Assembly: GCA_016183765.1 (NCBI GenBank)
Contig: JACPEA010000011.1
Location: forward strand, 186,001-250,000
Origin: Bacteroidota bacterium
Lineage (GTDB): Bacteria; Bacteroidota; Bacteroidia; Chitinophagales; Chitinophagaceae
Length of the DNA stretch: 64,000 nucleotides
Direction: 5' to 3'
The notes beneath the pieces are model-generated. The model worked only from the letters and a program-made list of their open reading frames with translations, searched no databases and was not told where the DNA came from. Positions within the stretch are counted from its first letter, which is position 1. Every line of letters starts with the position of its first letter. Below are positions 47,358-54,911 of this stretch, one piece after another. A program made the position numbers and the translations under genes.

Positions 47358-47462
47358 TTACAGGATATGACTGATGGAAACGGTTTCATGATCCTCCTCG
47401 CCCGAGAGCAGCAGGAGGAAAGTGAAAAAATGGTCCATCAACAGCAGAAATTTCTTTTCCAT
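47358..47462 (-). CDS. Tiny hypothetical protein (34 residues), second gene of a small-peptide unit
   Basis: Reading frame of 34 residues with a hydrophobic N-terminal half (MEKKFLLLMDHFFTFLLLLS) and a short acidic tail (GEEDHETVSISHIL). It lies 33 bp downstream of the 63-residue gene on the same strand and ends close to the PFOR terminator. A possible small membrane or exported peptide. There is no homology I can name; support is only position and composition. Confidence 0.35.
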   Translation of the reverse strand: MEKKFLLLMDHFFTFLLLLSGEEDHETVSISHIL

Positions 47463-47495: not shown

Positions 47496-47687
47496 TTATG
47501 CCAGTTTAAGTTCATCCCTGTCCTGCATTTGGGACAGTTTTTCTGTGGGTTTGCTGGTATCCCTGGTCCAGATCAGTGTATGATCCCGGGTAGCGGCCGT
47601 GGTTTCATCCACCAGTACGCTTACCCCATTCTTACCACCTGCCAGCACGGCCAGCAGTAAAGAAGTGGTGATGTATTTTCCTTTCAT
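47496..47687 (-). CDS. Small hypothetical protein (63 residues) under the shared operator
   Basis: Starts MKGKYITTSLLLAVLAGG, a weak signal-like segment, then a polar sequence (VLVDETTAATRDHTLIWTRD, SKPTEKLSQMQDRDELKLA). No known family. Its reality is supported by what lies upstream: an A-rich leader (CTAAAAAACAACT) before the ATG and, at 47715-47761, a -33/-7 pair with the same 16-bp inverted repeat found at three promoters downstream of the sensor kinase. The tiny 34-residue gene follows. Confidence 0.5.
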   Translation of the reverse strand: MKGKYITTSLLLAVLAGGKNGVSVLVDETTAATRDHTLIWTRDTSKPTEKLSQMQDRDELKLA

Positions 47688-47714: not shown

Positions 47715-47761
47715 CAAAATTGCCTCCAAATTCCCTACTGCACAATCACACATTCATGTGA
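47715..47761 (-). promoter_or_regulatory. Operator-promoter of the 63-residue gene: inverted repeat + TTG-N20-CAATTTTG
   Basis: The plus strand carries TCACACATTCATGTGA at 47746-47761. On the minus strand it is followed directly by TTG (47745-47743), then 20 nt, then CAATTTTG (47722-47715), one base from TAnnTTTG. The centre-to-centre distance from operator to -7 is exactly 35 bp, as at 52101, 52926 and 53905. Confidence 0.75.
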
Positions 47762-47791
47762 AATCCTTTACCAGTAAGGATTTTAGACCTA

Positions 47792-47807
47792 TCACACATT
47801 TATGTGA
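47792..47807. promoter_or_regulatory. Second operator copy (TCACACATTTATGTGA)
   Basis: A 16-bp inverted repeat identical in type to the one at 47746-47761, with centres 46 bp apart. No -7 element lies at 35 bp on either strand, so it is probably an auxiliary site for the small-gene promoter. Confidence 0.65.
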
Positions 47808-47893
47808 GGCCGTTTACCTTTCATCATTTTCAATCCTCCGTTTATCCTTATCCGATATTTTAACAGGTACGGCTGCTGCAATTTTAATTCAAT

Positions 47894-47977
47894 ACGGGGT
47901 CTGGCAAGCATTGACCCTATTCCCCGTTTTCATAATATGCAGTTAGTTCCGCCCCGGTATTCCTATTGGGGCTTTTT
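47894..47977 (+). terminator. Two successive terminator-like hairpins, possibly of a small RNA
   Basis: First hairpin: ACGGGG (47894-47899) with CCCCGT (47922-47927), then T-rich, and an alternative inner stem GGGTC/GACCC. Second: GCCCC (47951-47955) with GGGGC, then TTTTT ending at 47977. No protein gene on the plus strand precedes them after the terminator at 47339, so they might end a small transcript. Confidence 0.35.
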
Positions 47978-48080
47978 ATTCTTATGCCGGCAACCGTCCA
48001 ATTGATACGCCCAGTAAACCGCTTATACCACATAAAAGGGTGAATTTCCTGTTCCGGTATCCCGTAAGCTTTTTTGTTTA

Positions 48081-48088
48081 TAGATTTG
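48081..48088 (+). promoter_or_regulatory. Putative -7 element of the sensor kinase gene (TAGATTTG)
   Basis: Perfect TAnnTTTG match 17 bp before the ATG at 48106. It has no copy of the inverted-repeat operator at the position seen in the regulated promoters. Confidence 0.5.
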
Positions 48089-48105
48089 ATACACCCAAAC
48101 CCTGC

Positions 48106-51100
48106 ATGAAGAAAACCTTTGAACTTGTTGCCTGTTTGCTGCTTTTTGTAACCCCATTGCTGGCACAGCGTGGATTTACGTTCAACCGCATCAGTACCGA
48201 TGATGGTATTGGCCTTGCCTCTAATGTTGTGTATTGCACCTACCAGGACAAAAAAGGCTTTATCTGGACAGGAACGGCCAATGGTCTTCAGCGTTTCGAC
48301 GGCTCCAAATTTATCCGGTTCAATGCCCCCAATATTACCAGTCCCAGGGCATCCGGTCTTACCAAGATCCTCCCTTACGACAGCAGTGCGCTCTGGCTCT
48401 GTTTCCCCAACCTGCAGGAAATAGGCATTTATCATACGGCTACCTTAACCTATACCACTGTTCCGGTAAAAAGTTCCCGACCCATTAATAACCTGGGTGG
48501 AATCAACCTATGGCAGGATAGTCGTGGCGAGACCTTCCTGCTCATCAATAAATTCGGGCTCTTGCATTACGATAAAAAACAGAACGCATTTATAGACGAC
48601 AATTATTTTCATTTTCCCGAAGGATGGATACCGGGTCTGGGGTTATTTGAGGATACCCTGAAACAGCAATATTGGTTCCCCTGCGGGGATAACGGGTTTT
48701 CGGTATACGATGCCAGTGATCAAAAAATGTACACCAACCGGTACAACCCAAAAAACATCCCCCTGCTGAACCGAAAAGAACTCGGGGCCGGTGCATCGGA
48801 AGTATTTATCGACAGTAAACGCAGGCACTGGTTATTTACCTGGGTGTCGGCACATGTAAAATATTGTTACGACTCAACCGGCAAACCGCTGAAAGATACC
48901 GCGGGCCTGAACTATAACCCCGATTATTCAGAGCTGCGGAATTTTTATGAGACAAAGCAGGGTCTGCTCTGGATGTATGGCACCAATTCGCTGTACAATT
49001 TTGATAATGACACCCGCAGTTTCAATTATTATGAACACGAAGCCGGCGCAGCAACCGGGATCCAGTTTCATTTTGTGTACCAGGTAATGGAAGACCATGA
49101 CGGAAGCATCTGGGTGAGTACCGACGATGGACTGTATTTTGCCTCTCCGGGCAGTGGCACTTATTCGGTGGTAAATATTCTTTTCTCGGAAAAAAAAGGC
49201 GCGGTTGAGTGTACCGATATTTACCAGTTGCGCTCGGGGCAATATTGGCTCAGCACCTGGGGACGAGGTATCCTTACCCTGAGCCGAAACCTGGAAACCT
49301 ACGATGCCGGCATCTATACCAATAAACCTGAAGGCAGCGATAAATGGATCGAATACCGGCAAACCTGGGCCCTGTACCAGCATACGGACGGAAAAGTGTG
49401 GATCGGTTGCCAGGCAGGCAACTACATGATCTATGATACTGCCACCAAACAAACCCGTTTCCTGACCGAGCCGGCTTTTGAAGGTGCTACCATCAATTTC
49501 ATCACAGGAGATACAAGAGGAAATATCTGGTTATCCAGTTCCCGCGGCTCGCTGGTGAAATACGACGGTAAGAAGTTCACCGTACTGCACAAAATGGGCT
49601 CTGTCATCAACAAGATCTTTATCGATAAGGAGGGACTGTTGTGGGTAGCCGTTGAAAGCAAGGGTCTGTACTGCCTCAGCAGAGATGGTACGCGCATCCT
49701 CAAACACTATACGGCCGAAGGTCCGGCCGGAGAAAAACTGTTCATGAATGTGGGCAAGGATATTGAGCAGCTGAACGACAGCACCATGGTATTTGGCGCA
49801 GGAGCCATGAACTTCATCAACAAGAAAACGGGCAGGGTATACTGGCTTACATACGATGACGGATTGCCCGGTAATACCATTATGCGCATGGACGGGGATG
49901 GTTATCTCTGGATGATCACGCTGGATGGGTTATGTCGTTACAACCCCGACACAAGACGGGTTACGCCTTATGGAAGAAAAGACGGCATCACCCTGGCACA
50001 TGCCACTACCGAAGCGGATTTTTTCAGCGCTGACGGATACATGATGTTCACAGGCAACAACGCACTACTCTATTTTAAACCCAACATCTTCCGGAATAAA
50101 CAACCAAGAGATGTGGTGATCACCGATTTCAAACTGCTGAACAATTACCTGTCGGTCGATTCATTGCAATCTTTGTCGCGCATCCAGTTCTCAAGCACAC
50201 AGAATTCATTCAGTATTTATTTTGCCTCCCTCAGCTATCTTGACCGTGAAAAGCTGACCTATTACTATAAGATGAGTGGTATTGACAAGGACTGGATCAG
50301 GGCCGACCGCCAGAATTTCATCAATTATTCACTGTTGCCGCCCGGCAACTACACGTTCAGCGTGTTCTGTGAGGATATAGACGGCAACCGCTCTAAAAAT
50401 ATCACACAACTGCACATCTATATCAAACCTCCGTTCTGGCGTACCTACTGGTTCATCAGCGCCCTGTTTTTCATTCTGGCCTTAGGTATCTATGCGGTGC
50501 ACAGGTTACGCGTAAACAAATTACTGGCCGTTGAAAAATTACGGAACCGCGTGGCGCGCGACCTGCACGATGATATGGGCAGTACCCTCAGTACCATCAA
50601 TATTCTCAGCTCCATGGCCAAAAGCAGGATCCAGGTAGATCCTGTAAAGACCACGGAATACCTCGGCAAGATCAGCGATAACAGCCAGCGTATGATGGAA
50701 GCCATGGACGATATTGTCTGGAGCATCAAGCCCAGCAACGACAGTATGCAGAAGATCACCGCCCGTATGCGTGAGTTTGCCACCAATGTACTGGAAGCAA
50801 AAGAAATAGAACTGGATTTTCGTGTGGATGAATCAGTTTTTGATGTAAAACTGAATATGGAAGCCCGGAGGGATTTTTTCCTCATATTCAAAGAAGCGGT
50901 GAACAATGCGGCCAAATACTCGCAGGCCAGTCTAGTGATCGTGCAGATAGGATTACACAATAACAGGCTGCTGCTGGTAGTAGAAGATGACGGCATCGGT
51001 TTTGATCCCGAAAAAGCGGATAGCGGCAATGGAATGGGCAATATGCAGAAAAGGGCCGATGCCATGCATGGGCGTTTACATATTTTATCAAAACCCGGCG

Positions 51101-51138
51101 GCGGCGCAAAAGTAACGGTGAACATACCAGTACCCTAA
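48106..51138 (+). CDS. Two-component regulator propeller sensor histidine kinase
   Basis: One-pass membrane kinase of 1010 residues. Signal peptide (MKKTFELVACLLLFVTPLLA), two periplasmic propellers with reg_prop motifs (VVYCTYQDKKGFIWTGTANG, QVMEDHDGSIWVSTDDGLYF, TWALYQHTDGKVWIGCQAGN), a Y_Y_Y domain at about 690-775 (YYYKMSGIDKDWIRADRQNF then LPPGNYTFSV), a membrane helix at about 783-800 (WFISALFFILALGIYAV), a HisKA_3 helix with RVARDLHDDMGSTLSTINIL (phospho-His near 820) and a HATPase (FKEAVNNAAKYSQ, VEDDGIGFDPEK, NGMGNMQKRAD). Unlike HTCS hybrids it has no fused receiver or AraC domain; the LuxR regulator 183 bp downstream is the obvious partner. Confidence 0.95.
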   Translation: MKKTFELVACLLLFVTPLLAQRGFTFNRISTDDGIGLASNVVYCTYQDKKGFIWTGTANGLQRFDGSKFIRFNAPNITSPRASGLTKILPYDSSALWLCFPNLQEIGIYHTATLTYTTVPVKSSRPINNLGGINLWQDSRGETFLLINKFGLLHYDKKQNAFIDDNYFHFPEGWIPGLGLFEDTLKQQYWFPCGDNGFSVYDASDQKMYTNRYNPKNIPLLNRKELGAGASEVFIDSKRRHWLFTWVSAHVKYCYDSTGKPLKDTAGLNYNPDYSELRNFYETKQGLLWMYGTNSLYNFDNDTRSFNYYEHEAGAATGIQFHFVYQVMEDHDGSIWVSTDDGLYFASPGSGTYSVVNILFSEKKGAVECTDIYQLRSGQYWLSTWGRGILTLSRNLETYDAGIYTNKPEGSDKWIEYRQTWALYQHTDGKVWIGCQAGNYMIYDTATKQTRFLTEPAFEGATINFITGDTRGNIWLSSSRGSLVKYDGKKFTVLHKMGSVINKIFIDKEGLLWVAVESKGLYCLSRDGTRILKHYTAEGPAGEKLFMNVGKDIEQLNDSTMVFGAGAMNFINKKTGRVYWLTYDDGLPGNTIMRMDGDGYLWMITLDGLCRYNPDTRRVTPYGRKDGITLAHATTEADFFSADGYMMFTGNNALLYFKPNIFRNKQPRDVVITDFKLLNNYLSVDSLQSLSRIQFSSTQNSFSIYFASLSYLDREKLTYYYKMSGIDKDWIRADRQNFINYSLLPPGNYTFSVFCEDIDGNRSKNITQLHIYIKPPFWRTYWFISALFFILALGIYAVHRLRVNKLLAVEKLRNRVARDLHDDMGSTLSTINILSSMAKSRIQVDPVKTTEYLGKISDNSQRMMEAMDDIVWSIKPSNDSMQKITARMREFATNVLEAKEIELDFRVDESVFDVKLNMEARRDFFLIFKEAVNNAAKYSQASLVIVQIGLHNNRLLLVVEDDGIGFDPEKADSGNGMGNMQKRADAMHGRLHILSKPGGGAKVTVNIPVP

Positions 51139-51271
51139 ATCCAAGCTCATGCCTGTGCAGATCAGCAGACTGGTTAGCCAGAAACTACGTTTCAATACAT
51201 TTACCTGCATCGCATTGTTGCTGGCGGTATAGTCTGGCACTGATAACAGCCAGGATAACATATTTATGCGG

Positions 51272-51302
51272 TTGATTTATCCTGAACCACTGCCTATTTT
51301 TG
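51272..51302 (+). promoter_or_regulatory. Own promoter of the LuxR response regulator (TTG-N20-TATTTTTG)
   Basis: TTG (51272-51274) and TATTTTTG (51295-51302) have 20-nt spacing, 19 bp before the regulator ATG. It lacks the TCACA-N6-TGTGA operator, so the regulator gene is probably not controlled the same way as the target genes. Confidence 0.6.
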
Positions 51303-51321
51303 AACCGGCAAAAGAGAAATA

Positions 51322-51954
51322 ATGACGAAACTGTTGATTTACGAAGATAACCCCCAGCTACGTGAAGGACTAACCATGCTCATCAATGGATCGGAAGGGT
51401 TTGAGGTACTGGCCGCTTTTAAGAACTGCAATAACGTAATCGAAGAAGTTACCGCCTGGAAACCCGATGTGATACTGATGGACATAGATATGCCCGGGAT
51501 CAACGGTATTGAAGGCCTGAAAAAGATCCGCCAGGTGAACGATGACGTAAAAGTATTGATGCTCACCGTTTTTGATGATAACAAAAACGTATTCCAGGCC
51601 ATCAGCAGCGGCGCCAATGGATATGTGCTGAAAAAGACACTTCCTACCAAACTGCTTGAATACATCAAAGAGGCGCAAAGCGGCGGCGCACCCATGACCG
51701 CCAGCATTGCCACACAGGTATTAAAGATGTTCTCCTCCATGAACAATGAAAAAGGGGAAGACTACCATTTATCAGATCGCGAAAAACAGGTATTACAATT
51801 CCTGGTAGAAGGCTATAGTTATAAAATGATCGCCAATGAAATGTTCATTGCCATCGATACGGTAAGAAGCCATATCAAAAAGATCTACGAAAAGCTGCAT
51901 GTAAACAGCAAAAGTGAAGCTGTAGCCAAAGCTTTCAAAGACAGGTTAGTATAA
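51322..51954 (+). CDS. LuxR/NarL family response regulator, partner of the propeller kinase
   Basis: Regulator of 210 residues. Receiver: KLLIYEDNPQLREGL (acidic pair), phospho-Asp in PDVILMDIDMPGINGIEGL near residue 54, Lys in YVLKKTLPTKL near 104. The GerE helix-turn-helix is at about 150-205 (YHLSDREKQVLQFLVEGYSY, KMIANEMFIAIDTVRSHIKK, LHVNSKSEAVAKAF). Gene order with the kinase at 48106 makes the pairing very likely. I propose, as inference, that it binds the 16-bp inverted repeats flanking this locus at 47746, 47792, 52101, 52926 and 53905. Confidence 0.94.
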   Translation: MTKLLIYEDNPQLREGLTMLINGSEGFEVLAAFKNCNNVIEEVTAWKPDVILMDIDMPGINGIEGLKKIRQVNDDVKVLMLTVFDDNKNVFQAISSGANGYVLKKTLPTKLLEYIKEAQSGGAPMTASIATQVLKMFSSMNNEKGEDYHLSDREKQVLQFLVEGYSYKMIANEMFIAIDTVRSHIKKIYEKLHVNSKSEAVAKAFKDRLV

Positions 51955-51974
51955 ACCTACTGTTATAATTGGGG

Positions 51975-52026
51975 GGCCGCGGGTTGCCGTTCAGATCAAT
52001 GTTCTGCAGCTTTGCGGCTATTTTTT
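51975..52026 (+). terminator. Terminator-like hairpin after the response regulator
   Basis: Arms GGCCGC (51975-51980) and GCGGCT (52014-52019) enclose a 33-nt loop and are followed by a T6 run. Weak stem, but correctly placed after the stop at 51954. Confidence 0.45.
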
Positions 52027-52100
52027 GTGCCTGTGGTTATCTTCACCATATACCCGCTGCTATTTACCATTCCTACTGCTTATTTCCCTTTTGTACCCAA

Positions 52101-52147
52101 CCACATTTTCATGTGATTGCCCGGGCCTGCTGCTACAGGTAGGTTTG
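52101..52147 (+). promoter_or_regulatory. Operator-promoter of the cytochrome c gene: inverted repeat + TTG-N20-TAGGTTTG
   Basis: CCACATTTTCATGTGA (52101-52116) abuts TTG (52117-52119); after 20 nt follows TAGGTTTG (52140-52147). Operator centre to -7 centre is 35 bp, which places an activator at about -42 from transcription start, a class II position. Confidence 0.78.
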
Positions 52148-52214
52148 CGGCAATGAAAACATTTCTGCAACGGAAATGGATTTTTCAAAAATTATGTAAC
52201 CATACAAACCAACC

Positions 52215-52823
52215 ATGAAAAAAAAATTTCTCACAGTAACCATCCTGTCTGCTGTTATTGCCGCCGCAATTATCTCCTGCACCAGCTCTTCCGGCAAAGA
52301 TTCTCAAACAAACACTGCCGCCACCAGCGAGAACACTGTTGACACCACTAAAAGGATCGAACGTGGCGAATACCTGGTAAATACCATCGGATGTGATGAC
52401 TGTCATTCTCCCAAAAGAATGGGCGCACACGGTCCCGAACTCATTCCAGAACTTCGCTTCTCCGGGTTCCAGAAAGATGGCAAACTGCCTCCGGAAGATA
52501 CAAAAGCCGTTCAGAACGGATGGGCCCTGTTTGCTCCGGACCTGACAGCTGCTGTAGGACCGTGGGGTATTTCCTATGCATCGAATATCAGTTCAGACAG
52601 TACTGGTATCGGTGGCTGGAAAGAGGAGAATTTCATGCGTGCGATGCGTGAAGGAAAATTCAAGGGACTGGAAGGCGGTCGCCAGTTGTTGCCACCCATG
52701 CCCTGGCCCAACATCCGTAAACTTACAGATGAGGACCTGAAATCCATGTTCGCCTACCTCAAATCAACCAAACCGGTTAACAACGTCGTGCCCAACCCGG
52801 TACCGTTGGCCGATGTTAAATAG
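52215..52823 (+). CDS. Cytochrome c family lipoprotein
   Basis: Exported monoheme protein of 202 residues. Lipobox IISC at residues 19-22, then a Ser/Thr linker; the heme motif is CDDCH at about 58-62 (LVNTIGCDDCHSPKR); a likely axial Met is in LLPPMPWPNIRKL near 172, and the end is the class I cytochrome helix (TDEDLKSMFAYLKSTKPVNN). It would be a membrane-attached electron carrier or a subunit of a periplasmic enzyme. It has the shared operator in its promoter and a terminator behind it. The partner is not apparent. Confidence 0.9.
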   Translation: MKKKFLTVTILSAVIAAAIISCTSSSGKDSQTNTAATSENTVDTTKRIERGEYLVNTIGCDDCHSPKRMGAHGPELIPELRFSGFQKDGKLPPEDTKAVQNGWALFAPDLTAAVGPWGISYASNISSDSTGIGGWKEENFMRAMREGKFKGLEGGRQLLPPMPWPNIRKLTDEDLKSMFAYLKSTKPVNNVVPNPVPLADVK

Positions 52824-52845
52824 TCAATCCTTTACTGAAAAACCA

Positions 52846-52872
52846 GGCCGCGGCATTTGCTGCGGCTTTTTA
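52846..52872 (+). terminator. Rho-independent terminator of the cytochrome c gene
   Basis: Stem GCCGC...GCGGC with inner GC/GC pairing around ATTT, followed by T5ATTTT, 23 bp after the stop codon. Confidence 0.75.
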
Positions 52873-52925
52873 TTTTCAATCATCCGGTCAGACCGCTCTT
52901 ACAGGATTGGCACCCTTTATCCCAA

Positions 52926-52972
52926 CCACATTTTCATGTGATAGGATGCCGGTTTCTGCAGGCGTAGGTTTG
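52926..52972 (+). promoter_or_regulatory. Operator-promoter of the second YD-like lipoprotein gene
   Basis: CCACATTTTCATGTGA (52926-52941), the same 16 bases as at 52101, and TAGGTTTG at 52965-52972. Centre distance is 35 bp. The abutting triplet is TAG rather than TTG, so the -33 element is poor and the promoter should depend more on an activator. Confidence 0.78.
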
Positions 52973-52994
52973 CTGCAGATTACAAACGAATACT

Positions 52995-53825
52995 ATGAAA
53001 AAAATGAAATTATTATCGATGAAAGTGGGTATGATTTACCTGTTAGTTGCCTTACTGGTAAGCGGCTGCACCAAAAATCCTGGTACACCCGGCACACAAA
53101 ATCCGCCTCCGGGCAATACCAAAAAATTATCCAGGATCGCCTACGATGACGGTAGTTACGAAAACATTGCTTACAATAGCAATGGAAGCATTACAAGCAT
53201 CACCAATCATGTTACATTCGGCACAAGTACACCGATACATGTTGTGTATGACTTCATCTATTCAGGAAGCCAGGTATTGGAAGTACGTGGTGATAACGGC
53301 AGTAAATTCAAATACACTTACGATGCCAATAACAAACTGAGCAAAACAGAAATGTTCAACGCGGGGGGCAACCTGCTCGCCTGGTATGCCTACACTTACG
53401 ATGCCAATGGCAAACTCTGGAAGACAGACGGATATACCCGTGTACCCGGCGGCGGTGTTTCTGTTACACCCAGTTTACGCTACGAAAACGAATACTATAC
53501 CAATGGCAATCTGAAAAAAATAACCTTTTATTATAAGGATGCAACAACCGGTTCGCTGGATAAAACCAACGAGTTTGTATTTAGCCAGTACGATACCAAC
53601 CCGAATACGACCGCCGTTTTTGAAGCCAACCCGTACCTGCCTGTGGAGAGTTTTATCCCCAACAACCCATTGTCAGAAATCCACTACGATTCTTTCGGTA
53701 ATGTAGAAGAGACCGTGAACCATACTTATACCTATGATGCCGGCGGTTACCCACTGACCCGCAAGACCGTTACCAAATCGACCGGTTTCCCCGATACAAT
53801 TGAGAATGCTGTATTCTCATATTAA
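52995..53825 (+). CDS. YD-repeat-like lipoprotein, paralogue of the gene at 40125
   Basis: Lipoprotein of 276 residues: signal peptide with lipobox LVSGC near residues 21-25, a Pro/Gly/Thr linker, then repeats of the form YDDGSYENIAYNSNGSITSI, FIYSGSQVLEVRGDNGSKFK, YTYDANNKLSKTEMFNAGG and YTYDANGKLWKTDGYTR. It ends with NPYLPVESFIPNNPLSEIHYD and TGFPDTIENAVFSY, blocks shared with the protein at 40125-40892. These YD-like repeats suggest a beta-rich carbohydrate- or surface-binding protein. Function unknown. Its promoter has the shared operator and it is followed by a strong terminator. Confidence 0.82.
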   Translation: MKKMKLLSMKVGMIYLLVALLVSGCTKNPGTPGTQNPPPGNTKKLSRIAYDDGSYENIAYNSNGSITSITNHVTFGTSTPIHVVYDFIYSGSQVLEVRGDNGSKFKYTYDANNKLSKTEMFNAGGNLLAWYAYTYDANGKLWKTDGYTRVPGGGVSVTPSLRYENEYYTNGNLKKITFYYKDATTGSLDKTNEFVFSQYDTNPNTTAVFEANPYLPVESFIPNNPLSEIHYDSFGNVEETVNHTYTYDAGGYPLTRKTVTKSTGFPDTIENAVFSY

Positions 53826-53849
53826 TGTCATCAGACCTTTTTTCACCAG

Positions 53850-53876
53850 AAAGCCCGGATTTGGATCCGGGCTTTT
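53850..53876 (+). terminator. Rho-independent terminator of the YD-like lipoprotein gene
   Basis: Perfect stem AAAGCCCGGAT/ATCCGGGCTTT with a TTGG loop and a short T tail, 24 bp after the stop codon. Confidence 0.85.
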
Positions 53877-53904
53877 GTATTTAAAACATGCACAAACCGG
53901 CAAT

Positions 53905-53951
53905 TCACACGTTTATGTGATTGCAAACATGCAGGTTCAAGGATAATTTTG
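53905..53951 (+). promoter_or_regulatory. Operator-promoter of the small secreted protein gene: inverted repeat + TTG-N20-TAATTTTG
   Basis: TCACACGTTTATGTGA (53905-53920) abuts TTG (53921-53923); after 20 nt follows TAATTTTG (53944-53951), then the ATG at 53968. Centre distance is 35 bp, as at the other three promoters. Confidence 0.78.
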
Positions 53952-53967
53952 TTCCATAATTTTGAAT

Positions 53968-54195
53968 ATGAAAGCAGTTTACCAAAATACCCTTCTCAGC
54001 CTGTTTTGCCTGGTAAGTGTGTGTTTGGCTGCCCCCACCCAAAACATCGCATATCCGCAACGGTTGATCCGATCAATCGAAAAACCTACAGTAAATACCA
54101 TTGATCATATTGATAATCAATGTATTGAGTCTAATGTAGCCACAGGAGCACCCTTTTCCATCGAAGAGGGCAGCATTCGTTTTGCCTGCTGGTAG
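53968..54195 (+). CDS. Small secreted protein, function unknown
   Basis: Exported protein of 75 residues with signal peptide (LLSLFCLVSVCLAAP; cleavage near residue 22). The mature part of about 53 residues has two Cys (DNQCIESN and the penultimate residue of RFACW) that could form a disulphide. ATG 53968 is chosen over a TTG six bases upstream. No family is recognised. Reality is supported by the operator-promoter 17 bp upstream. It is the third target downstream of the two-component pair. Confidence 0.6.
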   Translation: MKAVYQNTLLSLFCLVSVCLAAPTQNIAYPQRLIRSIEKPTVNTIDHIDNQCIESNVATGAPFSIEEGSIRFACW

Positions 54196-54311: not shown

Positions 54312-54911
54312 ATGATTCAAACAGGCAACCCGGTCATCAGTATCTATACCGAAATGACACCCAACCCGGAAACCATGAAGTTTGTGGCCAACAAATTACT
54401 GTATCCAGGCAAGAGTATTGATTTTGCAGATGAAACACTGGCGGCCCCATCACCCCTGGCAAAAGAGCTGTTCAGTTTTCCTTTCATCAGGAGCGTATTC
54501 ATTGCCAGCAATTTTGTAACCCTGACCAAAACAGTAGATACCGACGACTGGCAGGATGTGATCCCAACCATCAAAGAATTTCTGAAACAATACCTGGAGA
54601 ACGGTGGTGTGGTAGTGAACGAAGAGGAAGTGGCCAAAGTAAAACAGGAAGCCTCCAATACCGTTAGCGCCGATGATGACGATATTGTTAAACGCGTAAA
54701 GGAATTGCTGGAGAATTATGTGAAACCGGCCGTTGAAATGGACGGTGGCGCTATCCAGTTCAAAAGCTATAACGAAGGAACCGTGAACCTGATGCTGCAG
54801 GGAAGCTGCAGTGGTTGTCCTTCCTCCATGATCACCCTCAAAGCGGGTATCGAAGGAATGATGAAACGTATGATCCCCGAGGTAAAAGAAGTAGTGGCAG
54901 AAGCCGAATAA
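54312..54911 (+). CDS. NifU family Fe-S cluster scaffold/carrier protein (Nfu)
   Basis: Protein of 199 residues with an Nfu N-terminal domain (ISIYTEMTPNPETMKFVANK, PLAKELFSFPFIRSVFIASN) and a C-terminal NifU domain with the cluster-binding CxxC in GSCSGCPSSMITLKAGIE near residue 160, preceded by VKPAVEMDGGAIQFKSY. It carries or assembles 4Fe-4S clusters in the cytoplasm. The two-domain form is typical of Bacteroidota and mitochondria-like Nfu. Monocistronic, with its own terminator. Confidence 0.95.
   Translation: MIQTGNPVISIYTEMTPNPETMKFVANKLLYPGKSIDFADETLAAPSPLAKELFSFPFIRSVFIASNFVTLTKTVDTDDWQDVIPTIKEFLKQYLENGGVVVNEEEVAKVKQEASNTVSADDDDIVKRVKELLENYVKPAVEMDGGAIQFKSYNEGTVNLMLQGSCSGCPSSMITLKAGIEGMMKRMIPEVKEVVAEAE

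Follow-up and report, generated by a model that had tools for sequence, protein, structure and literature searches.

A NarL-type two-component system in Bacteroidota predicted to activate itself and mostly exported proteins from an inverted repeat at a fixed promoter distance

The described systems that come closest to the locus analysed here are the hybrid two-component systems (HTCS) of gut Bacteroides, the VraR/LiaR systems and NarX/NarL of Escherichia coli. HTCS are single chains with an AraC-type domain, and VraR/LiaR are cell-wall stress systems of Firmicutes. The E. coli NarL dimer recognises 7-2-7 sites; it activates yeaR from one such site immediately ahead of the -35 element, and in ogt derivatives it does so from -44.5, -67.5 or -77.5 (PMC4549865, PMC7419079). 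NarL also represses frdA (PMC4549865). Here we report, from a 64,000-nucleotide window of contig JACPEA010000011.1 of a Chitinophagaceae bacterium, a sensor kinase and a 210-residue response regulator flanked by five copies of a 16-bp inverted repeat, all within a 6.2-kb stretch. We propose from sequence comparison, with a probability of about 0.86, that they form a NarL-type, self-activating two-component system that would act on mostly exported proteins via YCACAYNNNNRTGTGR at a class II-like promoter position.

The pair shares features with each of these systems. The regulator has a receiver domain (PF00072, E 2.3e-26), in which D54 (predicted phosphoacceptor) and K104 are invariant in nine orthologs, and a C-terminal GerE helix-turn-helix (PF00196, E 1.8e-17), and its partner is a HisKA_3 kinase; same-cluster kinases accompany the regulator in 54 of 69 nonduplicate loci. 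Together with a 16-bp inverted repeat of putative 7-2-7 form, this architecture resembles that of NarX/NarL, and the operator sits just upstream of the -33 element much as the NarL site does upstream of -35 at yeaR. Unlike NarL, whose engineered site is TACCCCTAAAGGGGTA (PMC4549865), the operator word here is TCACAY, the promoters are Bacteroidota -33/-7 promoters and the sensor is a propeller; the regulator scores 146.6 bits against the NCBIfam NarL equivalog, below its cut-off of 250. Its best solved-structure match, over the full length, is a chain named VraR. The sensor part, Reg_prop and Y_Y_Y followed by a histidine kinase, is built as in HTCS, but the kinase and the LuxR-type regulator are separate proteins and the kinase chain gave no receiver or helix-turn-helix match, unlike the single chains of HTCS.

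The repeat is clustered rather than scattered. In the whole genome (3,671,419 bases) the pattern YCACANNTTYATGTGR has six matches, five of them in the 6.2-kb stretch at the positions given in the original prediction, and the same pattern read backwards has one. The sixth match (C15:148521), 85 kb away, precedes a DUF2807 gene. Lacking a -7 element at 35 bp, it might pass for a chance match, but it is probably real, with another geometry: about 150 nt upstream of the same gene, G130 has an identical site and G049 a degenerate one, and an operator also precedes DUF2807 relatives in two further genomes, G118 and G128; none was found in L244 (G043) or L246 (G128). The operator core without its outer letters has seven exact genome matches, and the extra one (C15:323585), inside an open reading frame (ORF) resembling an amidohydrolase, was set aside. 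Allowing up to one mismatch, the core matches 38 times versus 22 for its reverse, and such matches are too noisy for naming members.

The second line of evidence is geometric. At four window promoters the operator centre lies exactly 35 bp from the centre of the -7 element and at three of them a TTG abuts the repeat, just as had been claimed. We scanned 69 loci (64 of 80 ortholog loci plus nine genus loci) for -7 elements matching TAnnTTTG at 5 of 6 positions or better, and found 124 at distance 35 among 566 site-orientations, versus 1–18 at each other distance from 15 to 75 (18 at distance 34). A second peak at 49–51 bp (10, 12 and 18 elements) fits kinase promoters. The 124 promoters come from 55 of 67 loci, this set being drawn from 62 of the 80 ortholog loci and the nine genus loci; both totals exclude duplicates of loci with G handles (L154, L163, L165 and L167), which are likewise absent from the own-promoter, kinase-promoter and palindrome-only counts given below. 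Conservation of operator and -7 element in these promoters proves nothing, because both were used for selection. However, the abutting TTG, which was not a selection criterion, is present in 82 of 124. A 16-bp inverted repeat is clear, with arms selected by the pattern; the positions three away from the centre, which were outside that selection, are conserved too (T 0.81, A 0.83), but -2 is uninformative, leaving a 7-base half putative. The spacers from TTG to -7 element are nearly without information, random pairs having a mean identity of 0.27.

With a site whose end directly precedes -33, the most straightforward interpretation is activation by recruitment. The periplasmic propeller sensor kinase would phosphorylate the regulator, a regulator dimer is predicted to bind the repeat and, from a position near -42 immediately ahead of the -33 TTG, may recruit RNA polymerase to these Bacteroidota -33/-7 promoters. 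The alternative that the regulator binds but represses, or acts dually, we consider unlikely. It would accommodate the kinase-promoter sites at 49–51 bp and the sites at 47792 and before DUF2807 that have no -7 element at 35 bp, and it has a precedent in NarL at frdA; yet in the 124 promoters the site leaves the core promoter free, and TTG is absent from 42 of them, which is tolerable for an activator. Kinase-promoter spacing, at about 50, is roughly half a turn out of phase with 35, and the effect there may differ.

Which protein binds the operator is the next question, and the NarL/LuxR-type regulator is very probably the answer, because co-occurrence, sites in its own promoter and covariation of helix and operator all link the two. 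Nine of 100 relatives, the source genome included, hold the regulator at 81% identity or more (next-best 56%); all nine have 2–8 operators each, and among the other 91 nine have 1–2. In the genus, 14 of 101 genomes hold the regulator (E at most 1e-60), and the composite of operator and -7 element, with up to one mismatch, occurs in 14/14 of these versus 16/87 without it; two of those 16 are G110 (72% complete), with three composites, and G128 (90%), with six. The search of relatives also established that the system is found in several families and is not private to the source genome.

According to the original prediction, neither the kinase promoter nor the regulator promoter has the site. This is true of consensus copies, yet both carry degenerate operators, at 48028 and 51256, and many relatives have better copies in both places. 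Across 82 regulators, an operator and a -7 element at 35 bp (up to three mismatches in all) precede the regulator in 37 of 41 at 70% identity or above, a class including records named Sediminibacterium, Segetibacter, Algoriphagus, Cyclobacterium, Arenibacter and Pedobacter, versus 0.05 expected from shuffles. The same holds for 12 of 22 at 55–70%, including Hymenobacter and Chitinophaga, and for 7 of 19 below 55% (0.02 expected in each class). The regulator probably controls its own gene, which would be positive feedback. Among kinase homologs, 25 of 54 have an operator (up to one mismatch) within 100 nt of the start, with the -7 element about 50 bp away; the starts of L100 and L165 were apparently called too early, and their sites are excluded from the 25.

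A CRP/FNR-family protein bound to the palindrome at a class II position, a possibility the original prediction had raised against itself, is very unlikely. The half-sites are of TGTGA type and the position resembles -41.5, and a CRP-type gene is present in the G021 and G041 loci (PF00027 for the G021 one). But CRP half-sites run the opposite way round to the polarity seen here, TCACA-N6-TGTGA; a PF00027 protein is present in 55 of 60 relatives and the motif in only nine; and the motif follows the NarL-type regulator, standing in its own promoter in several families and changing with its helix. With such different distributions, and the operator in the regulator's own promoter, we rejected this binder. 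Recent local duplication of one promoter, without regulatory meaning, is barely credible and was likewise rejected, since the spacers are unrelated (0.27 identity) and the same word stands before unrelated genes, in G049 and G041 at remote loci with the same spacing, and in other families, even though operator 3 has the same sequence as operator 4 and the genome copies, all but one of the six, are clustered.

The third line of evidence comes from the recognition helix, DTVRSHIKKIYEKL, which is nearly invariant in the regulator clade. The NarL residue aligned to its residue 183 is the second V of TVKVH, presumably the base-contacting V189. Residue 183 tends to go with the operator arm: R-S-H regulators mostly accompany TCACAT, and R-F-H regulators CTACAT. 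Seven distinct loci (L225 and L256 being the same) have DTVRFH regulators; six show CTACAT-N4-ATGTAG and, 35 bp away, a -7 element. The site stands ahead of the regulator in some (L106, L254 and, as TTACAT, L255), behind it or on both sides in others. The sister R-F-H loci with an operator of this form of their own, at an unchanged -7 distance, are L106, L218, L225, L228, L254 and L255. TCCCAT..ATGGGA accompanies ETVRTH (L276), ETVRTY (L103) and ETVRSHIKNTY (L211), and TCGCAT..ATGCGA accompanies NTVREY (L229). Variant palindromes with a -7 element in 26 loci number 16 at distance 35, versus 0–6 at other distances from 20 to 60. In 298 genomes of the order, the CTACAT composite has 27 places in 15 genomes (backwards control, 5), seven of which, in six genomes, have a recognised regulator within about 1.5 kb; residue 183 is always F, and these regulators include a previously unseen QFH type. 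The TCACAT composite has 42 places in 21 genomes (backwards control, 3); 11 of 30 loci scanned (nine genomes) have a recognised regulator, with S at residue 183 in seven genomes and T in two. G287 holds both regulator types, each beside its own operator word. These searches were only partly blind, because several of the genomes had already been examined. An upstream scan for palindromes only misses many sites, left arms being degenerate there: for R-S-H regulators, the left arm is CACAT in 13 of 30 and the right arm ATG(T/C)G(A/G) in 26 of 28. A scan of 38 diverged loci also returned unrelated palindromes, and many diverged regulators had no site in it. Separately, at L277 2191-2206, TACCCTATATTGGGTA-TTG precedes a regulator with GTVRTHIKRIYEKL and resembles the E. 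coli NarL word. The system described here would be a single clade within a broader group whose operator arm tends to follow residue 183.

Several observations weigh against this self-activation model. First, one geometry is insufficient for all sites, because several conserved operators are not 35 bp from a -7 element: the 47792 copy has none at this distance in either direction, the DUF2807 site and the kinase promoters are spaced otherwise, and across the nine genomes with the ortholog only three of ten distal operators have one (two of the ten are intragenic). The claim of a class II site near -42 fits the four promoters named, and some other sites lie at different positions. Second, no own-promoter site was found for 4 of 41 regulators at 70% identity or above, 10 of 22 at 55–70% and 12 of 19 below 55%. 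Third, a recognised regulator is lacking within about 1.5 kb at 20 of the 27 CTACAT loci and at 19 of the 30 TCACAT loci scanned, and matches also came from the backwards controls (5 and 3). Fourth, the helix rule has exceptions: L211 has serine yet TCCCAT, two R-T-H regulators adjoin TCACAT sites, the seventh DTVRFH locus (L227) has mixed arms, and no site was found for the ETLRFH regulators L104 and L226. Moreover, the R-F-H regulators may be one clade, and the operator changes would therefore not be many independent events.

The candidate regulon comprises the regulator gene, probably the kinase gene (from about -57) and mostly exported proteins, which would include lipoproteins of the cytochrome c, YD and GIN classes, a barrel of TonB type and small secreted proteins. 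As for the original prediction that the regulator activates an exported set, the regulator–operator link is supported by comparison, and activation is inferred from position. The targets named for the four window promoters—the 63- and 34-residue pair, the cytochrome c lipoprotein, the YD lipoprotein and a small secreted-looking protein—are indeed there. Requiring an operator with up to one mismatch and a -7 element at 35 bp in other genomes, we found the same classes recurring: cytochrome c behind the same word and spacing in G049 and G043, and in G041 at a distant locus; YD lipoproteins, one of them far from the regulator locus in G049; DUF2807 (GIN) proteins behind operators of genus relatives and, in L157, L169 and L186, close to the sites; and a TonB-type outer-membrane barrel and small secreted-looking proteins. 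The site that follows the regulator leads to a small protein and an extracytoplasmic function (ECF) sigma factor in several Algoriphagus-type loci, and to S41 peptidases and other proteins in Arenibacter and Maribellus. Exceptions to export include this sigma factor and, in G043, a hemerythrin-domain protein. Because the candidate target set is largely exported, a surface or envelope response is likely.

Small proteins are a recurrent feature of these targets. The 75-residue protein has 10 database entries, itself included, and 14 relatives, compared pairwise, share 0.76 of residues over the first 24 columns and 0.67 over the last 15, against 0.34 in between. In seven Sediminibacterium-group loci (one copy broken) the operator is followed by a 71–76-residue protein with a signal-like start, a variable middle and the C-terminal word S-I/L-x-E/D-G-S/T-x-R-F/L-x-x-W; at L184 12598 the small secreted protein behind the operator is apparently broken in the assembly. 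In several Algoriphagus-type loci the post-regulator operator precedes other secreted-looking proteins (54–81 residues), three with KTTQTCG. The 63-residue protein, which has a LAGGK stretch, matched no Pfam or NCBIfam family; MKGKYITTS is common to 33 aligned members of its family and is varied in shorter or more distant ones (L155, L158 and L159). The idea that the small secreted proteins are the system's own signal, processed to peptides sensed by the propeller kinase, is an unlikely one, although a protein fitting the part of secreted precursor does lie behind an operator; if true, the regulator would switch on its own gene as well as the precursor's, and the whole would be a Bacteroidota circuit of peptide autoinduction. 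In some relatives (14 of 69 loci; eight of nine in the genus set) kinase and regulator genes are separated by an acyltransferase gene, whose product is a possible modifier.

Table 1. Coordinates of the operators, promoter elements and genes of the locus, numbered along the window
Feature	Position	Strand	Remarks
34-residue follower protein	47358..47462	-	second gene of divergent unit; similar 34-residue ORF in the same place in G049, the only relative where found
63-residue protein, MKGKYITTS-start family	47496..47687	-	38 database entries, itself included
-7 element CAATTTTG	47715..47722	-	35 bp to operator 1 centre
Operator 1	47746..47761	-	TTG abutting at 47743-47745
Operator 2	47792..47807	.	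46 bp from operator 1; no -7 element at 35 bp
Degenerate operator CCACATAAAAGGGTGA in kinase promoter	48028..48043	+	one mismatch; ATG 62 nt downstream
Kinase-promoter -7 TAGATTTG	48081-48088	+	49 bp centre-to-centre from 48028 operator
Sensor kinase	48106..51138	+	Reg_prop, Y_Y_Y, HisKA_3, HATPase_c
Operator-like site TAACATATTTATGCGG in regulator promoter	51256..51271	+	two operator mismatches; regulator start 50 nt downstream
Regulator promoter core		+	TTG 51272-51274, N20, -7 TATTTTTG 51295-51302
NarL/LuxR-type response regulator	51322..51954	+	Response_reg, GerE
Operator 3	52101..52116	+	TTG abutting; -7 TAGGTTTG at 52140-52147
Cytochrome c lipoprotein	52215..52823	+	PF00034
Operator 4	52926..52941	+	-7 TAGGTTTG at 52965-52972
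YD/RHS-repeat lipoprotein	52995..53825	+	PF05593, 23.7 vs cut-off 22
Operator 5	53905..53920	+	TTG abutting; -7 TAATTTTG at 53944-53951
75-residue protein, secreted-looking by eye	53968..54195	+	signal-like start, variable middle, conserved C-terminus

Some further features of the locus are worth recording. The pair formed by operators 1 and 2, with its 46-bp separation, recurs in G049. Between kinase and regulator, eight of nine genus loci hold a gene for a 368–372-residue protein (Acyl_transf_3 in one tested), which was not found in the corresponding interval of the window (51139-51320), where there is only a short stretch with a similar beginning. Downstream of the 75-residue protein, 54312-54911 encodes an Nfu_N and NifU iron-sulfur scaffold protein, and the G049 and G043 loci contain genes of this cluster too.

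A NarL-type two-component system is of a known kind; what appears to be new is this clade, its operator, the fixed geometry on Bacteroidota promoters and the helix–operator pairs. The original prediction knew of no description of this system, and none is present among the matches listed in the open-access full-text literature (subscription papers and preprints being outside this scope), nor is a mapped operator for propeller kinase/LuxR-type pairs among the matches listed there. Propeller kinases with LuxR-type partners occur in many Bacteroidota among the loci compared. A single comparison yields an operator, its fixed -33/-7 placement, a self-regulation loop, candidate targets and a specificity-linked helix residue. 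Activator function at Bacteroidota promoters becomes directly testable, and the regulons of sister systems could become readable from genomes.

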